Virus record (IMG/VR): IMGVR_UViG_3300021505_000001
Location: 91,703 to 155,702 of that record
Direction: 5' to 3' (one strand)
Length of the DNA stretch: 64,000 nt
Source of the DNA: a virus
Positions 46,593-63,901 of the stretch are shown piece after piece; position 1 is the stretch's first letter, and each line of letters begins with the position of its first letter. A program made the position numbers and the translations under genes. The notes under the pieces were generated by a model, which did no database searches, was not told where the DNA came from, and was given only the letters and a program-made list of their open reading frames with translations.

Positions 46593-47288
46593 TTATTTTG
46601 GATATTCAAACAAATTTCCAACTATTTTTGAAATACTATCGTAAGAGGGTTTGACATAATACTTTTGTAATTTACCAAAAGTATTATATCGAAAGAAAGT
46701 TCCATTTTTTTCCATATCATTCAAATCAGTAGCCCAATTTTTGCCAATATCATATAACATTTGATGCATATCACATTGTTTCTTGCCTTTAAGCTGTTTA
46801 TTAGAAAAGAAATGTCTACAATACATTTGAAGGCTATTCTTTTTCCAATCCATTGCACGCCACAGCAAACAATTTACGACTTCATTATGAGGGATATTGA
46901 AAGCTCTGGCATCAAATACAACAGGATTTTCATAACTCCCATACAATTTATTAAAGAAAACAGACATATAAGATGCTGTAACACTTTCAATTTTGTTTAG
47001 TCTATAACCAAACCATGCTTCTGTGTTCAAAGTATCATAATCAGCAAGACAAAATGTAACTTCATCACTTTGAACATAAGCTATTTTAAAACCCTGCATT
47101 TGGCGGGAAACTTCTATCGCTGAGTTTACCATAGCTTCCATCAATTGACTATCAAAAGGCCTTTTACAATGTTTTGTAAACGTATGAAAAGCCTTTCCAT
47201 CAACCCGAACTATTAATGGGGTTCTCCTTAAAGCATACCTTTGTGTTACAAATTCATAACGTTTAAAACGTTCCCCTATAGTAAGCAT
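46593..47288 (-). CDS. tRNA-His guanylyltransferase-like protein (Thg1 family), 231 aa
   Basis: Thg1 enzymes add nucleotides in the 3'-to-5' direction, classically G-1 on tRNA-His, using two metal ions. The catalytic residues are all present: RVDGKAFHTF with Asp30, and VQSDEVTF with Asp75 and Glu76 (human D29, D76, E77). Length and layout fit the bacterial/archaeal Thg1-like proteins, with WRAMDWKKNS in the finger region. No tRNA-His gene is seen in the window, so it probably acts on host or distant phage tRNAs, or repairs damaged 5' ends. GGAG precedes the ATG. Confidence 0.9.
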   Translation of the reverse strand: MLTIGERFKRYEFVTQRYALRRTPLIVRVDGKAFHTFTKHCKRPFDSQLMEAMVNSAIEVSRQMQGFKIAYVQSDEVTFCLADYDTLNTEAWFGYRLNKIESVTASYMSVFFNKLYGSYENPVVFDARAFNIPHNEVVNCLLWRAMDWKKNSLQMYCRHFFSNKQLKGKKQCDMHQMLYDIGKNWATDLNDMEKNGTFFRYNTFGKLQKYYVKPSYDSISKIVGNLFEYPK

Positions 47289-47962: not shown

Positions 47963-48027
47963 TTTTTAAATCCTCCTTAGTTTTTATATAAAAATACACG
48001 TTTCTATTAAGTATGTCAAGAAAAAAA

Positions 48028-48369
48028 TTAAAACTTTTTGAAAGACTCAACAATATCCTTTATACTGAAAGTAACTGTTGTTTCTCCTGTATTGTTTTCA
48101 ATAATAGAATCAAAAACAGGAAGATTTGCATCCGATTCTACAACATCAAAAGTAAAAAGTTTTGTTGTATGTAATCCTTTAATTTGAAAAAGTTCCTCAT
48201 CTGTAAATTCATGTACACCAAAACCCTGCTTATAGTGACATCGAGGACATCTTTCTATAGCTCTAAAAACAGGACTTGTTTCTGAATCAAAATACTCATT
48301 GAATTGTTTTATATACTCATCTGAAATCCTTAATTGGATTCCACAATTCTTACATTTATAGCTTTCCAA
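48028..48369 (-). CDS. Zinc-ribbon protein, 113 aa, TTG start
   Basis: The protein opens ESYKCKNCGIQLRIS and later has CPRCHY, forming a zinc ribbon. The C-terminal half is a separate beta-rich segment. No ATG fits; AAGGAGG followed about 9-11 nt later by TTG (48369) marks a TTG start. It is the first gene of the leftward accessory operon. The promoter is not clear in the intergenic region upstream. Confidence 0.65.
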   Translation of the reverse strand: MESYKCKNCGIQLRISDEYIKQFNEYFDSETSPVFRAIERCPRCHYKQGFGVHEFTDEELFQIKGLHTTKLFTFDVVESDANLPVFDSIIENNTGETTVTFSIKDIVESFKKF

Positions 48370-48753
48370 AACAAACGTCCCCTCCTTATTAATCCTAAAA
48401 ATTTTTTTATTTTATCTCTATAAATATACATACAAAAAATGGAATAACAATAATTTTCTAAATATATAAAACATTCTGTATAGATATCTAAGAAAAGTTC
48501 CTATATTTTCTATGATTTATAATAACATACTTATCAAAAACCCACCAAAGTAAGGTATAGATAAATGGAAAAACATTATACATAACTACTTCTGTCTAAT
48601 CTTTATATAAAGGTTGAATCTTAATGGCATTATAAAATAATTTATGATGTAGATTAAGTAATAAAAATTTGTGAGTTGAGACAGAAGTTAGAAAAATTAT
48701 TTATTTTCAATTATTGTATTTAAAAACTTCGTCTCTCACATAAGAGGATTAAT
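48370..48753. other. Intergenic region, 384 bp, with inverted repeats
   Basis: No gene is seen. A plus-strand TAAAACATT lies at 48467-48475, some 280 bp before the 48754 gene. An inverted repeat ACTTCTGTCT (48588-48597) with AGACAGAAGT (48679-48688) encloses a 12-bp palindrome CTTTATATAAAG (48601-48612). It may contain an operator or a structured leader for the 48754 operon. Confidence 0.5.
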
Positions 48754-49116
48754 ATGCCATTACACATTCCTATAAAAATATCAGATTCTACCTTTATAAT
48801 CGAAAGTAAATTAATTATATTTATAATAAATGGCACTCTGACAGCTATTATAGGGGGAATAGTTAGAAATTTAACGGATTATTCTGATACTATAAGAGAT
48901 TTAATCATTGAGGGGATAGTTGCAGGATTCCTTGGATTTATAGCTTCTTTATTTTGCTATGAACACCAATTTACTTTCTCTCATGTACTTATAACTTGCA
49001 GTATTTGTGGGTTTCTAACAAGAAATATTTTAAAAAATTTAAATGAAGTTGAACTATTAATAACAAAGTGGAAAGAATTCACTGATTTTATAAAAAATAA
49101 TCCTGATGATAAATAG
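48754..49116 (+). CDS. Small membrane protein, holin-like, 120 aa
   Basis: Three hydrophobic segments are visible: about 23-40 (LIIFIINGTLTAIIGGIV), 53-70 (IVAGFLGFIASLFCYEHQ) and 76-92 (FSHVLITCSICGFLTR). The pattern 'loop-G-G-I-V-R ... G-F-L-G-F' and a charged C-terminal tail resemble three-helix phage holins, which form lethal membrane lesions at lysis. No endolysin is in the window, so holin is only a suggestion. AGAGG precedes the ATG. It starts a rightward three-gene unit with a second membrane protein and a receiver domain. Confidence 0.7.
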   Translation: MPLHIPIKISDSTFIIESKLIIFIINGTLTAIIGGIVRNLTDYSDTIRDLIIEGIVAGFLGFIASLFCYEHQFTFSHVLITCSICGFLTRNILKNLNEVELLITKWKEFTDFIKNNPDDK

Positions 49117-49127
49117 AGGTATTTAAA

Positions 49128-49721
49128 ATGAATAAAAAACTTCAAGGTTTTTTAATATTTTTGTCTGTTGCTATAATCTTATTTGGTATATTTACTCCTT
49201 CATTGTTATTAATAGTATTTGTAGGGTATCTTCTATTTTATGAAGGTATTTGCCTGATAAGTGGATTTTTTGAATGGATGGAATCTAAAAAAGAAAGGTA
49301 TTATGAAGTTACTGGAACTGTAAAAAACTTGATAGGAACACATCTAAGGGCATCTCTATTTATAATATTTCCTTTAGCTTCTATTACTTTAATTATTACA
49401 GACATCCAAAACTATCATACATGGAAAGCAATTTTATATCCATATACAGATTTTCTAACAATTTTAAATCATACAAGTAATAGTGCTGAATTAAACATAG
49501 GTAGATTCCTTTTTGAAACAACTACAAGAGCATTTCTTATATTCAATTCTCTTCAGATTATACATACTTCTATAGTTTTAGAAAGAATAATTGGTGTAAG
49601 ATTTACCAAAAAATATCCTCCTCTTACAAATATAATCTACAAAATAGTTAAATGGGCTAAAGAATGTGATGAAACTAAAATTATAGATACTGCTGAAATA
49701 ATTTCCTTCTTAGAGAAATAG
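49128..49721 (+). CDS. Membrane protein, 197 aa
   Basis: Hydrophobic segments lie near residues 6-24 and 26-45, then 70-88, and probably 120-140. The loops include a charged stretch (GFFEWMESKKERYYEV). AGAGGT precedes the ATG. It is 11 bp after the first membrane gene and 2 bp before the receiver gene. No family is recognised. Adjacency suggests that the three work together. Confidence 0.7.
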   Translation: MNKKLQGFLIFLSVAIILFGIFTPSLLLIVFVGYLLFYEGICLISGFFEWMESKKERYYEVTGTVKNLIGTHLRASLFIIFPLASITLIITDIQNYHTWKAILYPYTDFLTILNHTSNSAELNIGRFLFETTTRAFLIFNSLQIIHTSIVLERIIGVRFTKKYPPLTNIIYKIVKWAKECDETKIIDTAEIISFLEK

Positions 49722-49723
49722 TT

Positions 49724-50275
49724 ATGACAAATGAAAAATGTCCAACAATAAGAATCATAGATAATAATGTTACTATTTTAGAGATATTACAAGATGTTTG
49801 TTCTTCTACATGGAAAAATGCAAACATAAAAACATATCTTGGTAATAATAATCTAAAACTATTGGAACTCTGTAACTCTTCACTTTTGATATTAGATCAA
49901 ATACTAGATAATACAACAGGTATTGAAATTATCAAAGAAATGGCAAATAGTTATAAAGATAAAGAATTACCTGCTGTTATTCTTATGACAGGGATTCCTA
50001 AAAATGAAATACTCAGTATAATTAAAGAAAGTAATATCATGGATAGGGTAAAAAACTTAATAATTCTATTTAAACCATTTCATATAGTAACTTTACATGA
50101 AGTAGCCTGTAATATGTGTATTGAGTTATGTAACGAAAAACTATTTTCTGTTGATTGTGATTGTCATAATAACAACTTTCAAGAGAAGTCAAAATCTATA
50201 GTACAAAAGTTATTCAACGTTATCAAAAATAAACAAAGAAAACCTACTCATAAACAAATAATAAATGAAAATTAA
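49724..50275 (+). CDS. Stand-alone response-regulator receiver domain, 183 aa
   Basis: The CheY-like residues are all present: acidic Asp13 (RIIDNN), phospho-acceptor Asp58 (LLILDQIL), Thr89 (LMTG) and Lys117-Pro118 (LFKPF). Residues after about 125 form a Cys-containing helical tail and a basic C-terminus with no DNA-binding domain. Stand-alone receivers relay phosphate from a histidine kinase; none is in the window, so a host kinase or an unphosphorylated switch are options. It is the last gene of the membrane-protein island. Receiver domains are unusual in phages. Confidence 0.8.
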   Translation: MTNEKCPTIRIIDNNVTILEILQDVCSSTWKNANIKTYLGNNNLKLLELCNSSLLILDQILDNTTGIEIIKEMANSYKDKELPAVILMTGIPKNEILSIIKESNIMDRVKNLIILFKPFHIVTLHEVACNMCIELCNEKLFSVDCDCHNNNFQEKSKSIVQKLFNVIKNKQRKPTHKQIINEN

Positions 50276-50279
50276 AACT

Positions 50280-51677
50280 TTATGTCATTGAACATTGTTT
50301 TGCCATATTAACTACAAATTGTTTCTCAAATTGAGTTTTAATCCCAATATTATCTAAGAAATTATTAAACCAACGTTTTGTCTGGTTCATACCTCTTTCA
50401 GTAAGAGGAGTAAGTATATCTTCCTTAAATCCTGTTTTGTTCCTTAAACGAATTGTAGAAAATTCTGGCATTTCATAATCTGGAACATTCTGATTTTCCA
50501 TTCGTTTTGTATATGCCCTAGTATCAGCACCTATTTTTGAAGCAAAAATTAGTTGATTTGAAATATAAGCTTCGTTGGCTACAGGACCCGGATATCGTAT
50601 TTCCAATCTTCCACCTGATCCAAACCTAAAATCATGTCTTTCAGAATCATAACTTTTCCGCATACCAAGATAACTTGATGATTCCCACCTAGGATTAGTT
50701 TTCGTTAAAGCATTAAATATACTACCTACATGATTAAGATATGTTGATATAACTTCTTGTTTATGTGTATCAGAATTAGGAACAGTAGTGGATATATGCA
50801 TCCCAGCAAATTTATCCATTACAACATCACGTCTATCTAAAATACCTGTTTGCTTCCAAGCATTTGTCATAAGATGAGACATCATAATCATATTTGATAA
50901 TGGAGCTGAACCTATAACAATTTCTCTGGCTGTTCTATTTCCTATAGAAGAAAAAGACCCATCATTATAAGCTGTAAAAGATGTTGAAGTAGAATGACCA
51001 GAAGAAAAATCATATGTCATTAAAGGTGAAACTTCTATTCCTGTTGTTTCTTTAATTGGGTCTATTACAATTTTATTTAATAGTTTTTGTTCAGGTGTTC
51101 CACTGGGTATTTTCCATCTACCCTCATATTCTAATGAAAAATAATTTGGATGCAAAGCAAAATTTGGAACAAATATACCTTTCTTACTATTTAATGGAAC
51201 AATCTTTCCATATTTAAGTAATTCCTTAACATGTGTTTTATTTACAGGATTTTTAGAAATATTACTAATAACAAAGTTATCTAAATCAATTCCATTTTTA
51301 AAATTAGATTTATTAATCTCTTGTAATGTCTTTTTGAAATCTAAACTGCGTTGTGAATACTGCTGATTTTCTGAATGCAATCTTTTCTTTTTTTTAAGCT
51401 TATAATTCATTACATCTATAGTTGCTAACTTAACATTTCCATCATCTTCAATATCCCATATATATGGAATTGAAGAAGCCTCTATAGGTAATTTAAATTT
51501 ATTTCCTTTTCCTCCATTAAATAAACGTATCTGTCTATCTATTTTAAGTTTATCTAAATCTATACTTTCTCCTATTGTTTTATAGACTTCAGGAGATAAA
51601 TGTAAATCAGCAGTATTTGTTAATTTTTGTAAATATTTAGAAGTTTTTTGTGCTAAATCATTGTAATCAATTGTCAT
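50280..51677 (-). CDS. Amidoligase-like (glutamine-synthetase fold) protein, 465 aa
   Basis: The C-terminal part has the motif order of GS-fold amidoligases: FSLEYEGRW (near 179-187), YNDGSF, REIVIGSAPLS, GMHISTT (near 291-297) and GRLEIRYPGP (near 359-368). These parallel the family's 'GvElE', 'DgS', 'EivSp', 'GlHvHv' and a later catalytic/ligand Arg/Glu. Such enzymes form amide bonds using ATP. The N-terminal 170 residues are unrecognised. GGAGG precedes the ATG. It is the last gene in an operon headed by a second amidoligase-like protein at 52708. Assignment is by motif pattern only. Confidence 0.6.
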   Translation of the reverse strand: MTIDYNDLAQKTSKYLQKLTNTADLHLSPEVYKTIGESIDLDKLKIDRQIRLFNGGKGNKFKLPIEASSIPYIWDIEDDGNVKLATIDVMNYKLKKKKRLHSENQQYSQRSLDFKKTLQEINKSNFKNGIDLDNFVISNISKNPVNKTHVKELLKYGKIVPLNSKKGIFVPNFALHPNYFSLEYEGRWKIPSGTPEQKLLNKIVIDPIKETTGIEVSPLMTYDFSSGHSTSTSFTAYNDGSFSSIGNRTAREIVIGSAPLSNMIMMSHLMTNAWKQTGILDRRDVVMDKFAGMHISTTVPNSDTHKQEVISTYLNHVGSIFNALTKTNPRWESSSYLGMRKSYDSERHDFRFGSGGRLEIRYPGPVANEAYISNQLIFASKIGADTRAYTKRMENQNVPDYEMPEFSTIRLRNKTGFKEDILTPLTERGMNQTKRWFNNFLDNIGIKTQFEKQFVVNMAKQCSMT

Positions 51678-60630: not shown

Positions 60631-62994
60631 TTAATCCCAACTACGTTTTCTTATGGTTTCAAAATCATCTTTAATAAATATGTCCCCATTTTTAAAAACT
60701 GTATTCAAAAGTGGTTTCCAATCAAATGGCACTACATTTCTTTTATCTGTAGTTACATATTTACCTTCTGTTGTTTTATATAATGTAAGTAAACCTTTTT
60801 TACTAGCCTTCCATGGAGCATCTTTTGGACATTTAAAAACATCATACCATCCATTATTTCCATATATGGCACTACATTTCATAGCAAATTTATAAGTATC
60901 TCGATTTACTTGTTGTAAAAGACCTCCACCCATACCAAATGATATATTATCTACACTAAAATTTTCTGCTACAACAGCCTCCAGTATTTCATCAACAACA
61001 TCAGGATTGGATATTCCATCACCCTGAATAACTTTAACATAATTAATAACATTATAACCTTTACTATTTGATTGATACCCAAAACTATTTGCTAACATTT
61101 TAAGGGCACGAACAACCACTTCTTTTGGTTCTCCACTGTCTGGACGAATAACTACAGTTGCCCCGCTATTAATTACTTTCTGCTTTAACTCCTTACCCCA
61201 TATATTACTAATAGCATTATCCAAATCATAACTATCACTTACACAGGCAACAACTGTACCAGGTTTAGCAAACTCATCAAGTAAGCTTTCATATGCTTCT
61301 CTTTCTCGTTCTTTGCCCCAAGCTGTAATTGTACTATGTTCAGAATTACCACATACAACCACACAATCATTTCGTCTGACAACTAACATTCCACTGGGAA
61401 CAGTAATACAATAAATATTTCCTTTATAATCATATGTTTCAGCTATAAACTTATATCTTTTATATCTGCACTTACTGTTATATGTAAAACTAACTGTAAA
61501 CAGATTTTTACGATTATCTCTTTTATCCTTATAAAGATGTGTGCTTACAAAATAACCACATAGAGTACCTATAGCGGAAACAATATCTACTACCTTACGA
61601 TTTACTGTAGAAAAACTTATAGTTTGTTTCCCTGCTATCTTACCATCCCAATACTGTAATTCCTTAATAAAATGACGCCCCCATTCAAATGTTAATTTAC
61701 TAATATCTACCCATTCAAAATTTTTATCTATAGGTATATTTACTGGCCATTTAACATAAAAATGAGTTTGTCCTTTTTGAGTACCATTTGTTATTAAAGT
61801 TTGTGTATAATCCAAACCTGCTTCTTTCAATAATTTGCACAATCTATCTATTTTACGTTGCTTTTTAAATTTAAAACGTATTCCTTTACAACCACTTCTA
61901 CTACCATCACGCTTATCATCATCTGCAAAGAAAGACCCATCAGCCTGAAAAGCAACTCTTATAGCATCAATAGGTGTAAACTCATTACTGCCATTTTTAA
62001 TAAAACCACAATGTTTAAAAAACAAATTCCTATCATAATTTGTATCATCTGCATAAGTTACACATATCTTATTTTCATTATTAAAACGTATCATTCTATG
62101 ATTAGGTGTAACACAGATATCCAATCTTTTAGGAACACTGCTATTAAATCTATACATTTTACCATCATAGAATTCTGATACTTTATTTGTGTAATTAACA
62201 AATTCAATACTACCATCTTTATTATATTGAGCTACCTTTAAATTATCATCAAGTTCATCAAATCTTTTCCAGCCCTTTTCAGTTAAAATTTCAGTCTTTT
62301 CATCATAACATGCAGGCAGACTATATGCAGGCATTTCCTTTTTGTTTTTTTGGTCATAGTATTTCCATACACCTACAATGGCAGCTGTAGTATCAGTACC
62401 CATAAAGTTTACCAAATGAGATAAACCACCAATCATAGCACTCTGATAACTACTTACACCTCTAAAACCAAAATCATGTAATTTAAATGGGAGACCTTCA
62501 AGAGTATCACATGTTTTTTCCATCCATTTTTTTATAACTTGTTTTATTTCCCAACTTCTTGTTGCTACAGTAGTTGGATACCACATTTGTAATATTTGAG
62601 TTTCCATCCAACCAGGAAGCCAATAAAAATCAGGTTCCGTATTTTTAATAGTCATAATTACATTCTGAGTGGGAATTATTGTCCCTTCTGGAACAGCTTC
62701 TATTTCCATTGGATAATAACCCAAATCAACTATCTTCTTCCAACCATCATAGTTAAAAATACCTTTACCAACATGAATATCCCAAAAGTATTTTGCTTCC
62801 TCTACTTCTTCTATTGTTGGAAGTCTCAACAAAGCTTCTTCTATAATAGGCTTATATATAGGAAGAATATGCTTATTTTTACTTCTACTTTCTATATAGT
62901 AGAATGTCCCTTTTGTATCTGGTGGGAATTGTTTATAATGAGTACTTTTATAGCTATCTGTAGCTATTGCCGGATTGTAAGCTAATTGGAGCAT
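60631..62994 (-). CDS. nadV: Nicotinamide phosphoribosyltransferase (NAMPT/NadV) with intein, 787 aa
   Basis: NAMPT makes NMN from nicotinamide and PRPP. Without the intein (residues 229-550) the host protein is 465 aa, near the usual length. Conserved parts are visible: LHDFGFRGVSS (172-182), FMGTDTTAA with Asp201, the catalytic-His loop SEHSTITAWGK just after the intein, VIRPDSGEP and GDGISNPD. AGGAGG lies before the ATG. The upstream gene (63011) makes NAD+ from NMN, so the two form a complete two-step salvage route. Such phage pairs are known as NARP2 and restore NAD+ depleted by host defences. Confidence 0.9.
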   Translation of the reverse strand: MLQLAYNPAIATDSYKSTHYKQFPPDTKGTFYYIESRSKNKHILPIYKPIIEEALLRLPTIEEVEEAKYFWDIHVGKGIFNYDGWKKIVDLGYYPMEIEAVPEGTIIPTQNVIMTIKNTEPDFYWLPGWMETQILQMWYPTTVATRSWEIKQVIKKWMEKTCDTLEGLPFKLHDFGFRGVSSYQSAMIGGLSHLVNFMGTDTTAAIVGVWKYYDQKNKKEMPAYSLPACYDEKTEILTEKGWKRFDELDDNLKVAQYNKDGSIEFVNYTNKVSEFYDGKMYRFNSSVPKRLDICVTPNHRMIRFNNENKICVTYADDTNYDRNLFFKHCGFIKNGSNEFTPIDAIRVAFQADGSFFADDDKRDGSRSGCKGIRFKFKKQRKIDRLCKLLKEAGLDYTQTLITNGTQKGQTHFYVKWPVNIPIDKNFEWVDISKLTFEWGRHFIKELQYWDGKIAGKQTISFSTVNRKVVDIVSAIGTLCGYFVSTHLYKDKRDNRKNLFTVSFTYNSKCRYKRYKFIAETYDYKGNIYCITVPSGMLVVRRNDCVVVCGNSEHSTITAWGKEREREAYESLLDEFAKPGTVVACVSDSYDLDNAISNIWGKELKQKVINSGATVVIRPDSGEPKEVVVRALKMLANSFGYQSNSKGYNVINYVKVIQGDGISNPDVVDEILEAVVAENFSVDNISFGMGGGLLQQVNRDTYKFAMKCSAIYGNNGWYDVFKCPKDAPWKASKKGLLTLYKTTEGKYVTTDKRNVVPFDWKPLLNTVFKNGDIFIKDDFETIRKRSWD
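61345..62310 (-). mobile_element. Intein with LAGLIDADG-type endonuclease in NAMPT, 322 aa
   Basis: The insert begins with Cys229 (CYDEKTEILTEKGWKRF, intein block A) and ends VVVCGN before Ser551. VTPNHRMIRF is block B (TxxH). AFQADGSFF (near 348-356) matches the ADG part of a dodecapeptide endonuclease motif. Block F/G is YCITVPSGMLVVRRNDCVVV with final Asn550 and the +1 Ser551 needed for splicing. The usual penultimate His is Gly. The insertion lies at PA|SEHS, directly before the catalytic His, a typical conserved insertion point. Confidence 0.85.
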
Positions 62995-63010: not shown

Positions 63011-63901
63011 TTAATTTGGATTCCTTGTTTTGTTAATAATATCTAAAACAAGATGTCTATGTTCTTCAACAATATCATTCTTAATATCAATATTATTGAC
63101 ATTAAACCATTTTAATTCATAAATATCATCACCCGGTTCAGGTCTCCCACAAAACTTTGTGGTAGCAAAAAGTGTTGTTGTTATTTTATGAATACATTTT
63201 TTATAACGCCAACAATCAACAAAGTAACTTCCTATATATTTAAGATCGGTAATTTCAAGGGATGTTTCCTCTCGAACTTCCCTTCGTGCTGTGGTCTCCC
63301 AATTATCACCCGGTTTAACAAATCCACCGATCAAACGATAACCATTCTCTTCTTTTTTACGTCCAAGAAGTATTTCAGTATAATTATCATTAAAAATACC
63401 CACATCAACAGTTGGAATAGCTTTCGGAAACTGATTTTTAGAATGCCATATAGCTCCTATTCTAAATTCTTCAGTACCCTTAACTTTACTGGCTATTTTT
63501 TCTCTAATTTTTGTTCCAGAAATAAATATTTTCTGTTCAAAAATTTCAACTGGATACTTACCAAAATAATGATTTGCAAAACTATCTCTACTTCCATAAA
63601 GAATAGCTTCTTGTTCTGGAGCAGTCAAATCTTTGATCATTTCATCTAAATGAGTACTCCATACTTTATCATCATGTGTATCTTTTATATAAAGAACAGT
63701 TATATCAGGATATTCAGCCAACAACATCTGTTTTCTTGCCTCAAAATCAAGTGGATTAGGGTCCTCACACTTGATTGGAGACAATCCAAGAAAAATAATC
63801 ACTTTATCATGTTGAGAAATCACATGATCTATAAGTTGTTTATGTCCTTCATGGAGTTTTGGAACTTGAAATCTACCAACAATTATTCCTACTGGTTTCA
63901 T
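63011..63901 (-). CDS. Bifunctional NMN adenylyltransferase (NadM-type)-Nudix hydrolase, 296 aa
   Basis: Residues 1-145 are an NMN adenylyltransferase: GRFQVPKLHEGH (9-20, His17-x-x-His20) and ISGTKIR (127-133). Residues about 160-290 are a Nudix hydrolase with the box GGFVKPGDNWE followed by REVREETSLE (192-216). The same domain pair occurs in cyanobacterial and phage NMNAT-Nudix proteins. The first domain converts NMN and ATP to NAD+; the Nudix part may clear ADP-ribose or similar products. AAAGGAGG precedes the ATG. The NAMPT gene follows after 16 bp. Confidence 0.9.
   Translation of the reverse strand: MKPVGIIVGRFQVPKLHEGHKQLIDHVISQHDKVIIFLGLSPIKCEDPNPLDFEARKQMLLAEYPDITVLYIKDTHDDKVWSTHLDEMIKDLTAPEQEAILYGSRDSFANHYFGKYPVEIFEQKIFISGTKIREKIASKVKGTEEFRIGAIWHSKNQFPKAIPTVDVGIFNDNYTEILLGRKKEENGYRLIGGFVKPGDNWETTARREVREETSLEITDLKYIGSYFVDCWRYKKCIHKITTTLFATTKFCGRPEPGDDIYELKWFNVNNIDIKNDIVEEHRHLVLDIINKTRNPN

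Follow-up and report, generated by a model that had tools for sequence, protein, structure and literature searches.

Does a phage use a CheY-type receiver to decide when its host cell bursts? Phage yield is set by the timing of lysis, and to our knowledge few protein regulators of that timing have been recognized. The question is raised by three neighboring genes in a 64,000-nucleotide stretch of viral DNA (here called the window), which covers bases 91703 to 155702 of a 155,702-base virus record. According to the original prediction, two of these genes encode membrane proteins and the third encodes a receiver, an arrangement that would tie a membrane lesion to a phospho-signal. We examined the three genes, the rest of the record, and stand-alone receivers in other phages.

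The island and its membrane proteins

The predicted layout, a rightward three-gene island in a leftward region, was confirmed exactly. Three open reading frames (ORFs) on the plus strand occupy positions 48754 to 50275, encode proteins of 120, 197, and 183 amino acids, and are separated by gaps of 11 and 2 nucleotides. The flanking genes on either side (48028 to 48369 and 50280 to 51677) run leftward. Among 1,000 order-1 Markov sequences matched to it in length and composition, one contained an ORF as long as 120 amino acids and none contained one of 183; therefore, three abutting ORFs of 120 to 197 amino acids are not due to chance. Genes 1 and 2 each have a GAGG-type ribosome site upstream, and the short gaps between genes of one direction suggest co-translation. 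The tight three-gene operon is real. A promoter would be expected in the AT-rich region upstream of gene 1 (48370 to 48753, plus strand, 22% GC), and none stands out there. Over positions 48000 to 50700, we counted 18 promoter-like sites against 20.5 expected from shuffled sequences, which is no excess, and found no terminator-like site.

We searched for relatives of the island in two collections. Scans of IMG/VR with each of the three proteins returned no relative at a usable E value, and neither did tblastn searches with genes 1 to 3 in 50,697 phage records (genes 1 and 3 also at an E value of 10). Accordingly, the searches of IMG/VR and of these phage records revealed no relative of the three-gene set. 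The terminase and the major capsid protein place the phage only remotely, with best listed identities of about 24 to 26% and 25 to 31%, respectively; IMG/VR yielded 11 distant terminase loci and none for the capsid. The three genes could be an accidental neighborhood of recently acquired accessory genes that have no joint function. The island runs against its surroundings, no relatives of it were found, and its GC content is 25 to 27%, compared to 30% for the window. Nevertheless, we judge this explanation improbable, as the gaps of 11 and 2 nucleotides suggest co-translation and receivers recur near lysis genes in other phages, as described below.

Gene 1 (48754 to 49116, plus strand; 120 amino acids) belongs to the LydA-type holins of holin superfamily III. 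In a Pfam scan it scored 32.0 bits against PF16083 (Phage_holin_3_3), above the curated cut-off of 28.4. A search of the genome gave 32.6 bits, and gene 1 was the only match to this family in the 155.7-kb record. The protein also matched phrog_785, annotated as holin, at 1.2e-8. To call membrane segments, we used a Kyte-Doolittle hydropathy scan with a threshold of 1.6, which misses weak segments. Two segments were called in gene 1, in keeping with the two or three expected for the superfamily. The expected likeness to three-helix holins thus held for the family, while two helices were called instead of three. Neighbors found by tblastn were very weak (E values of 0.8 to 7), with a holin or holin family annotation in 4 of 19 rows. 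We consider the holin label sound as family membership, from which lethality is predicted only.

Gene 2 (49128 to 49721, plus strand; 197 amino acids) was expected to encode another membrane protein, and the scan indeed called two hydrophobic segments in it. Searches of Pfam, PDB, PADLOC, and the phage collection gave nothing for it, and its only match in PHROGs was a marginal one (phrog_10847; E value of 0.038). Position alone suggests that gene 2 is a candidate holin partner. In this respect the island can be compared with LydA-LydB of phage P1. As the name of PF16083 indicates, the P1 holin belongs to the same Pfam family, and it forms a holin/antiholin operon that is unlinked to the endolysin gene (PMC9025707). 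Unlike in P1, gene 2 has no LydB-like match in Pfam or PHROGs, and the excerpts of the P1 source describe no receiver gene in that operon (PMC9025707). Unlinked lysis genes have also been reported in Campylobacter phages (PMC7692668).

We then considered which other genes of the record might serve in lysis. Neither Peptidase_M15_3 nor Phage_lysozyme had a match in the record, which contains one receiver, one PF16083 match, and one DUF5675 match. Genes for the DUF5675 protein, a protein with one transmembrane segment (1TM), and a protein with three (3TM) stand in a row at L017:2832-4269 (G000:82832-84269), outside the window and about 56 kb from the island. In single BLASTP comparisons, the DUF5675 and 3TM proteins were 38% and 19% identical to a corresponding pair in Alteromonas phage PT11-V19 (7e-24 and 8e-8), and the 3TM proteins of both phages match phrog_6637. 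This row is possibly a second lysis locus of the window's phage. Moreover, a 155-amino-acid protein (L016:7493-7960; G000:67493-67960) carries a membrane segment at its N terminus and weakly matches an L-Ala-D-Glu peptidase family (phrog_2307; 4.1e-5); it may be an anchored endolysin. The DUF5675 protein and this protein are endolysin candidates of the phage.

Nearby lies a 122-amino-acid protein (L016:9079-9447; G000:69079-69447) that also has a membrane segment at its N terminus and is similar to lipoproteins of the superinfection-exclusion and Ltp types (phrog_15667, 1.1e-5; PF07553, below cut-off). It bears on a different view of the island, in which the membrane genes would serve superinfection exclusion or membrane protection instead of lysis and the receiver fold would be the soluble arm of that unit. 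Holin family membership of gene 1 is no proof of lethality, and candidate endolysin-type genes are located elsewhere in the record, as is the exclusion-like protein. On the other hand, gene 1 exceeds the curated holin cut-off, and PADLOC defense families gave no match for genes 1 to 3 at E values up to 0.01. We regard such a protective unit as rather unlikely.

Other genes of the record were recorded in passing. Three neighboring ORFs at L016:10556-13761 (G000:70556-73761) share a near-identical N terminus (MNFYKILN...), and ankyrin-repeat matches in three members of the scanned set probably correspond to them. Upstream of the island, the window carries a Thg1-like tRNA-His guanylyltransferase gene (46593 to 47288; PF04446, 2.7e-28; phrog_4717, 8.3e-73); no tRNA genes were found in the window.

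A divergent receiver

Gene 3 (49724 to 50275, plus strand; 183 amino acids) matched the receiver family PF00072 with an E value of 1.8e-5 and 25.3 bits, below the curated cut-off of 30.2. Judged by its sequence, gene 3 is a divergent CheY-type receiver. Pfam detected no output domain, and the protein ends in a C-terminal tail of about 45 residues. Single-sequence AlphaFold models were poor for both gene 3 (pLDDT of 44) and gene 2 (pLDDT of 52). A PDB fold search with gene 3 gave no match at an E value of 0.001; receiver domains appeared at ranks 4, 16, 20, and 24, and we give these ranks no weight.

The catalytic residues of receivers are five: two acids, an aspartate, a threonine or serine, and a lysine. 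Gene 3 had been predicted to be a stand-alone receiver with all phosphorylation residues. The phosphorylation aspartate, D58, is firm. The acid pair reads D13-N14, however, with N14 aligned to the second acid in four phmmer alignments as well as in MAFFT alignments. For T89 and K117, likely assignments come from the local motifs MTG and FKP, which fall at the ends of two strands in the low-confidence model (pLDDT of 44); MAFFT instead places M88 and N111 in the T/S and K columns. The second acid of receivers binds Mg2+ directly, and asparagine is a common replacement for it (PMC12632262). In the 2025 nomenclature, a recognized receiver that lacks at least one of the five residues is a pseudo-receiver (PMC12632262); with N14 at the second acid, gene 3 therefore falls into this class. 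Loss of the second Mg-binding acid probably favors protein contact, or at most weak phosphorylation, over a full phospho-switch. Gene 3 shares its replacement with bacterial pseudo-receivers, in which asparagine commonly takes this place (PMC12632262), but differs from them in being encoded by a phage and sharing its operon with a holin gene.

A kinase gene in the same genome, as in a phage-encoded two-component system, was not found: the HATPase_c kinase domain profile (PF02518) had no match at E values up to 1 in the 155.7-kb record, which may be a fragment. A receiver that stands alone, with no output domain and no HATPase_c partner in the record, could act as a decoy: by binding sensor kinases or response regulators of the host, it would alter two-component signaling there, and the membrane genes would have separate accessory functions. 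Phages do encode proteins that target two-component systems of the host, as reported for PIT4 (PMC10714779). However, a decoy leaves unexplained both the operon with a holin and the repeated placement of receivers near lysis genes in Alteromonas phages, and we find it an unlikely account, if one that deserves some weight.

Divergent receivers unpaired with a histidine kinase have also been described in jumbo phages as cRec domains (PF20274), and these are linked with NAD-related genes (PMC7824862). Gene 3 might then be an enzyme of the cRec type, with cyclic ADP-ribose or cyclic nucleotides as its substrates in an NAD-centered counter-defense. The phage does have families of this kind. A NAMPT gene (window positions 60631 to 62994) is followed by an adenylyltransferase-Nudix gene (63011 to 63901), and ADP-ribosylglycohydrolase and NADAR families occur elsewhere in the record. 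The middle of NAMPT (residues 228 to 552) matches segments from phage families that are unrelated, a pattern that would be expected of an intein. Conversely, PF20274 found nothing in the record at E values up to 10 and did not appear among the Pfam results for gene 3 at E values up to 1. Gene 3 also keeps different company: it shares its operon with genes for membrane proteins and lies about 10 kb from the NAD-synthesis genes. We consider an enzymatic role of this type highly improbable.

Receivers near lysis genes in Alteromonas phages

To find stand-alone receivers in the phage collection, we used a CheY segment and then the receiver of Alteromonas phage H4/4 as queries. The former matched 75 records and the latter 173 (60 listed in each case), and a minority of those listed were opened. 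Records were picked by receiver similarity or receiver annotation before their neighbors were seen, except V22 and A5, which were taken from papers naming a CheY-like gene in each. We opened ten Alteromonas phage genomes (H4/4, R8W, R9Y1, R9Y2, XX1924, PB15, PT11-V19, R22Y, V22, and A5), leaving out R9Y3 and the duplicate NC_047834. From other sources we opened MW202601, Bhz63, OQ658365, and six fecal records; OQ572403 lay outside the analysis. The Pseudomonas record OQ658365 was dropped, having two bacterial-type genes annotated nearby. Three scans of IMG/VR with Alteromonas receivers returned 5, 0, and 3 loci.

The stand-alone receivers of the ten genomes, which come from phages of marine bacteria and include several unrelated ones, represent six receiver types. 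In seven genomes, a holin, endolysin, or spanin, identified by match or annotation, lies within two genes of the receiver. For the remaining three, the link holds by homology in V22, and in PT11-V19 and R22Y the receiver is near DUF5675 only. H4/4 and R8W share the order holin, 1TM protein, receiver, transmembrane protein, and terminase, so that the holin (a phrog_1356 match in H4/4) is located two genes upstream of the receiver. A lysozyme adjoins the receiver downstream in R9Y1 and R9Y2 (GH108 for R9Y2), and R9Y2 has a 1TM protein upstream of it. XX1924 displays the order 3TM, 1TM, receiver, DUF5675, and GTA_holin_3TM; this order recurs in PB15, where the last protein is nearly identical and an M15 peptidase takes the place of DUF5675.

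The DUF5675 gene of XX1924 (L025:2438-2836) and the M15 peptidase gene of PB15 (L026:3384-3740) thus stand at corresponding places, with the receiver on one side and the holin on the other, in phages that are otherwise syntenic. From this positional exchange we infer a lysis role for DUF5675, a family of unknown function, and suspect that it acts as a lysis enzyme.

In A5, an N4-like phage whose closest Alteromonas phage was named as PT11-V19 (PMC10579305), a small protein and the receiver are followed by an Rz-like spanin, a protein with two transmembrane segments (2TM), and an annotated endolysin, the third gene past the receiver. The order in V22 is amidase, small protein, receiver, homologue of the A5 spanin-like protein, and 2TM protein, with DUF5675 five genes past the receiver. 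The V22 gene next to the receiver is reported to have 55% similarity to the A5 spanin-like gene (PMC10579305). In PT11-V19 and R22Y (the latter from ORFs only), a 1TM-receiver pair faces a 3TM-DUF5675 pair. Altogether, a membrane segment was called in the upstream partner in 7 of the 10 genomes (for H4/4, from the annotation and near-identical copies); none was called in V22 and A5, and the R9Y1 partner was left untranslated. Metagenomic contigs displayed similar arrangements by likeness: the R9Y pattern in four (L030 to L033), the A5 pattern in L123, and the V22 pattern in L122. The pattern in L122 is followed by a small, overlapping ORF whose start resembles that of a lipoprotein, which recalls an Rz/Rz1 pair. 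A further 48.7-kb metagenomic contig (L041), the one locus analyzed from a genome scan that kept 80 of 162 loci, had the order 1TM, receiver, and 2TM.

The residues of these receivers fall into two groups. All five are present in H4/4, R8W, R9Y2, XX1924, PB15, V22, and A5 (R9Y1 was not tabulated), while the PT11-V19 and R22Y receivers lack the D, T/S, and K. The Alteromonas receivers resemble gene 3 in having no output domain, a small protein upstream (with a membrane segment in the 7 called), and lysis-type genes nearby. The island conforms to the receiver-near-lysis arrangement, with the gene 1 holin two genes upstream of gene 3. It departs from it in gene 2, which at 197 amino acids is larger than the partners of about 100 amino acids just upstream of the Alteromonas receivers. 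Several Alteromonas receivers also keep the five residues, and only the receiver fold is shared with gene 3, at 9 to 19% identity in the five compared. The association of receiver and lysis genes may be convergent.

Some records depart from the pattern. In Manatee Spring phage MW202601, the receiver is away from the lysis genes, with an M15 peptidase seven annotated genes on. The regulator of Stenotrophomonas phage Bhz63 is full-length and PhoP-like, and a kinase-like gene accompanies it. Two of the six unannotated fecal records (L124 and L125) carry stand-alone receivers with no lysis gene recognized by eye; also by eye, L125 has a flagellar-type operon, and L126 to L129 have longer regulator-type ORFs. 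Judged in the same manner, the six fecal records are probably bacterial; if they are phage, L124 and L125 count against the pattern. The six are filed as "Bacteriophage sp." (MT835474, MT835480, MT835486, MT835489, MT835517, and MT835525), and the bacterial look of their opened stretches calls for caution with receiver counts in phage collections.

We estimated the weight of the pattern as a product of adjacency probabilities, which is 6e-9 with one lysis gene per genome or 2e-5 with four scattered ones; the calculation is post hoc, since both the distances and the choice of lysis genes were fixed once the loci had been seen, and it counts DUF5675 for PT11-V19 and V22. Omitting these two phages raises the product, still post hoc, to about 2e-6 with one lysis gene per genome or 5e-4 with four. 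All that the estimate shows is that the receiver-near-lysis pattern is hard to dismiss.

A possible control on lysis

We prefer to read the island as an operon for lysis control in which the receiver gates the holin, and we give this reading a probability of roughly 45%. According to this model, the gene 1 holin would open the inner membrane, and the gene 2 membrane protein would bind or tune it in the manner of an antiholin. The cytoplasmic receiver fold of gene 3 would bind gene 2 or the holin from inside and set the moment of opening. Control by gene 3 would more likely involve protein binding than phosphorylation. The operon, the holin family match, and the receiver fold with N14 were computed directly; the joint action of the three proteins, the direction of control, and the signal would follow from the model.

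Several results agree with lysis control: the tight operon, a holin match over the cut-off, the receiver match, the Alteromonas receivers near lysis genes, and DUF5675 and 3TM genes in the window's phage that are homologous to the PT11-V19 pair. Others oppose it, namely, the receiver identity of 9 to 19%, the larger gene 2, the lack of three-gene relatives, and the distance of about 56 kb to the DUF5675 and 3TM genes. MW202601, Bhz63, and two fecal records also weigh against it, and the lysis link of PT11-V19 and R22Y consists of DUF5675 alone. Together, the link between receiver and lysis, predicted from sequence, is partly supported: the wider pattern raises it, and the lack of homologues holds it down.

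The proposed tie between a membrane lesion and a phospho-signal fared differently in its two halves. The lysis half gains from the Alteromonas receivers near lysis genes; the phospho-signal half is weakened for the window's phage by N14 and by the lack of a HATPase_c match in the record. Alteromonas receivers with all five residues could respond to phosphorylation, which does not extend to PT11-V19 and R22Y. In these two phages, as in the window's phage, the chemistry is impaired and the fold would more likely act by binding. More tentatively still, several unrelated phage lineages may repeatedly have taken a CheY-type receiver into their sets of lysis genes, where it would serve as a cytoplasmic timer. 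Such a timer would read host phospho-signals, through kinase cross-talk or acetyl phosphate, and act on the membrane partner of the holin; some phages (the window's phage, PT11-V19, and R22Y) would since have lost the phospho-chemistry and retained a binding switch.

Small proteins that regulate holin triggering are known in other phages, and we liken the receivers to them by description: the T4 antiholins RI and RIII (PMC8385771) and the N4 regulator gp62 (PMC12642591). The "Receiver domain" of N4 was set aside, as it is a named region of the pinholin gp63 and not a CheY fold (PMC12642591). Lysis inhibition in N4 is described as unsolved in the same source (PMC12642591). Alteromonas phage receivers have been called PhoB, with reference to low phosphate (PMC8228385), or classed as CheY-like auxiliary genes of class II (PMC7289586, PMC10579305), and the excerpts of these three papers do not tie the lysis neighbors to the receiver. 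In the open-access literature, no title among the matches listed links a receiver or CheY-like protein with a holin, lysis cassette, spanin, or antiholin.

If the wider reading is true, receiver timers would be a class of antiholin-like regulators undescribed in the open-access literature surveyed, and annotations as PhoB or CheY-like auxiliary metabolic genes would be corrected. R9Y2, R8W, and A5 are named culturable phages that carry such receivers. If kept near lysis genes across lineages, the receiver would be a direct input from the signaling state of the host into lysis. The pattern hints at an unrecognized control on the timing of host cell bursting.
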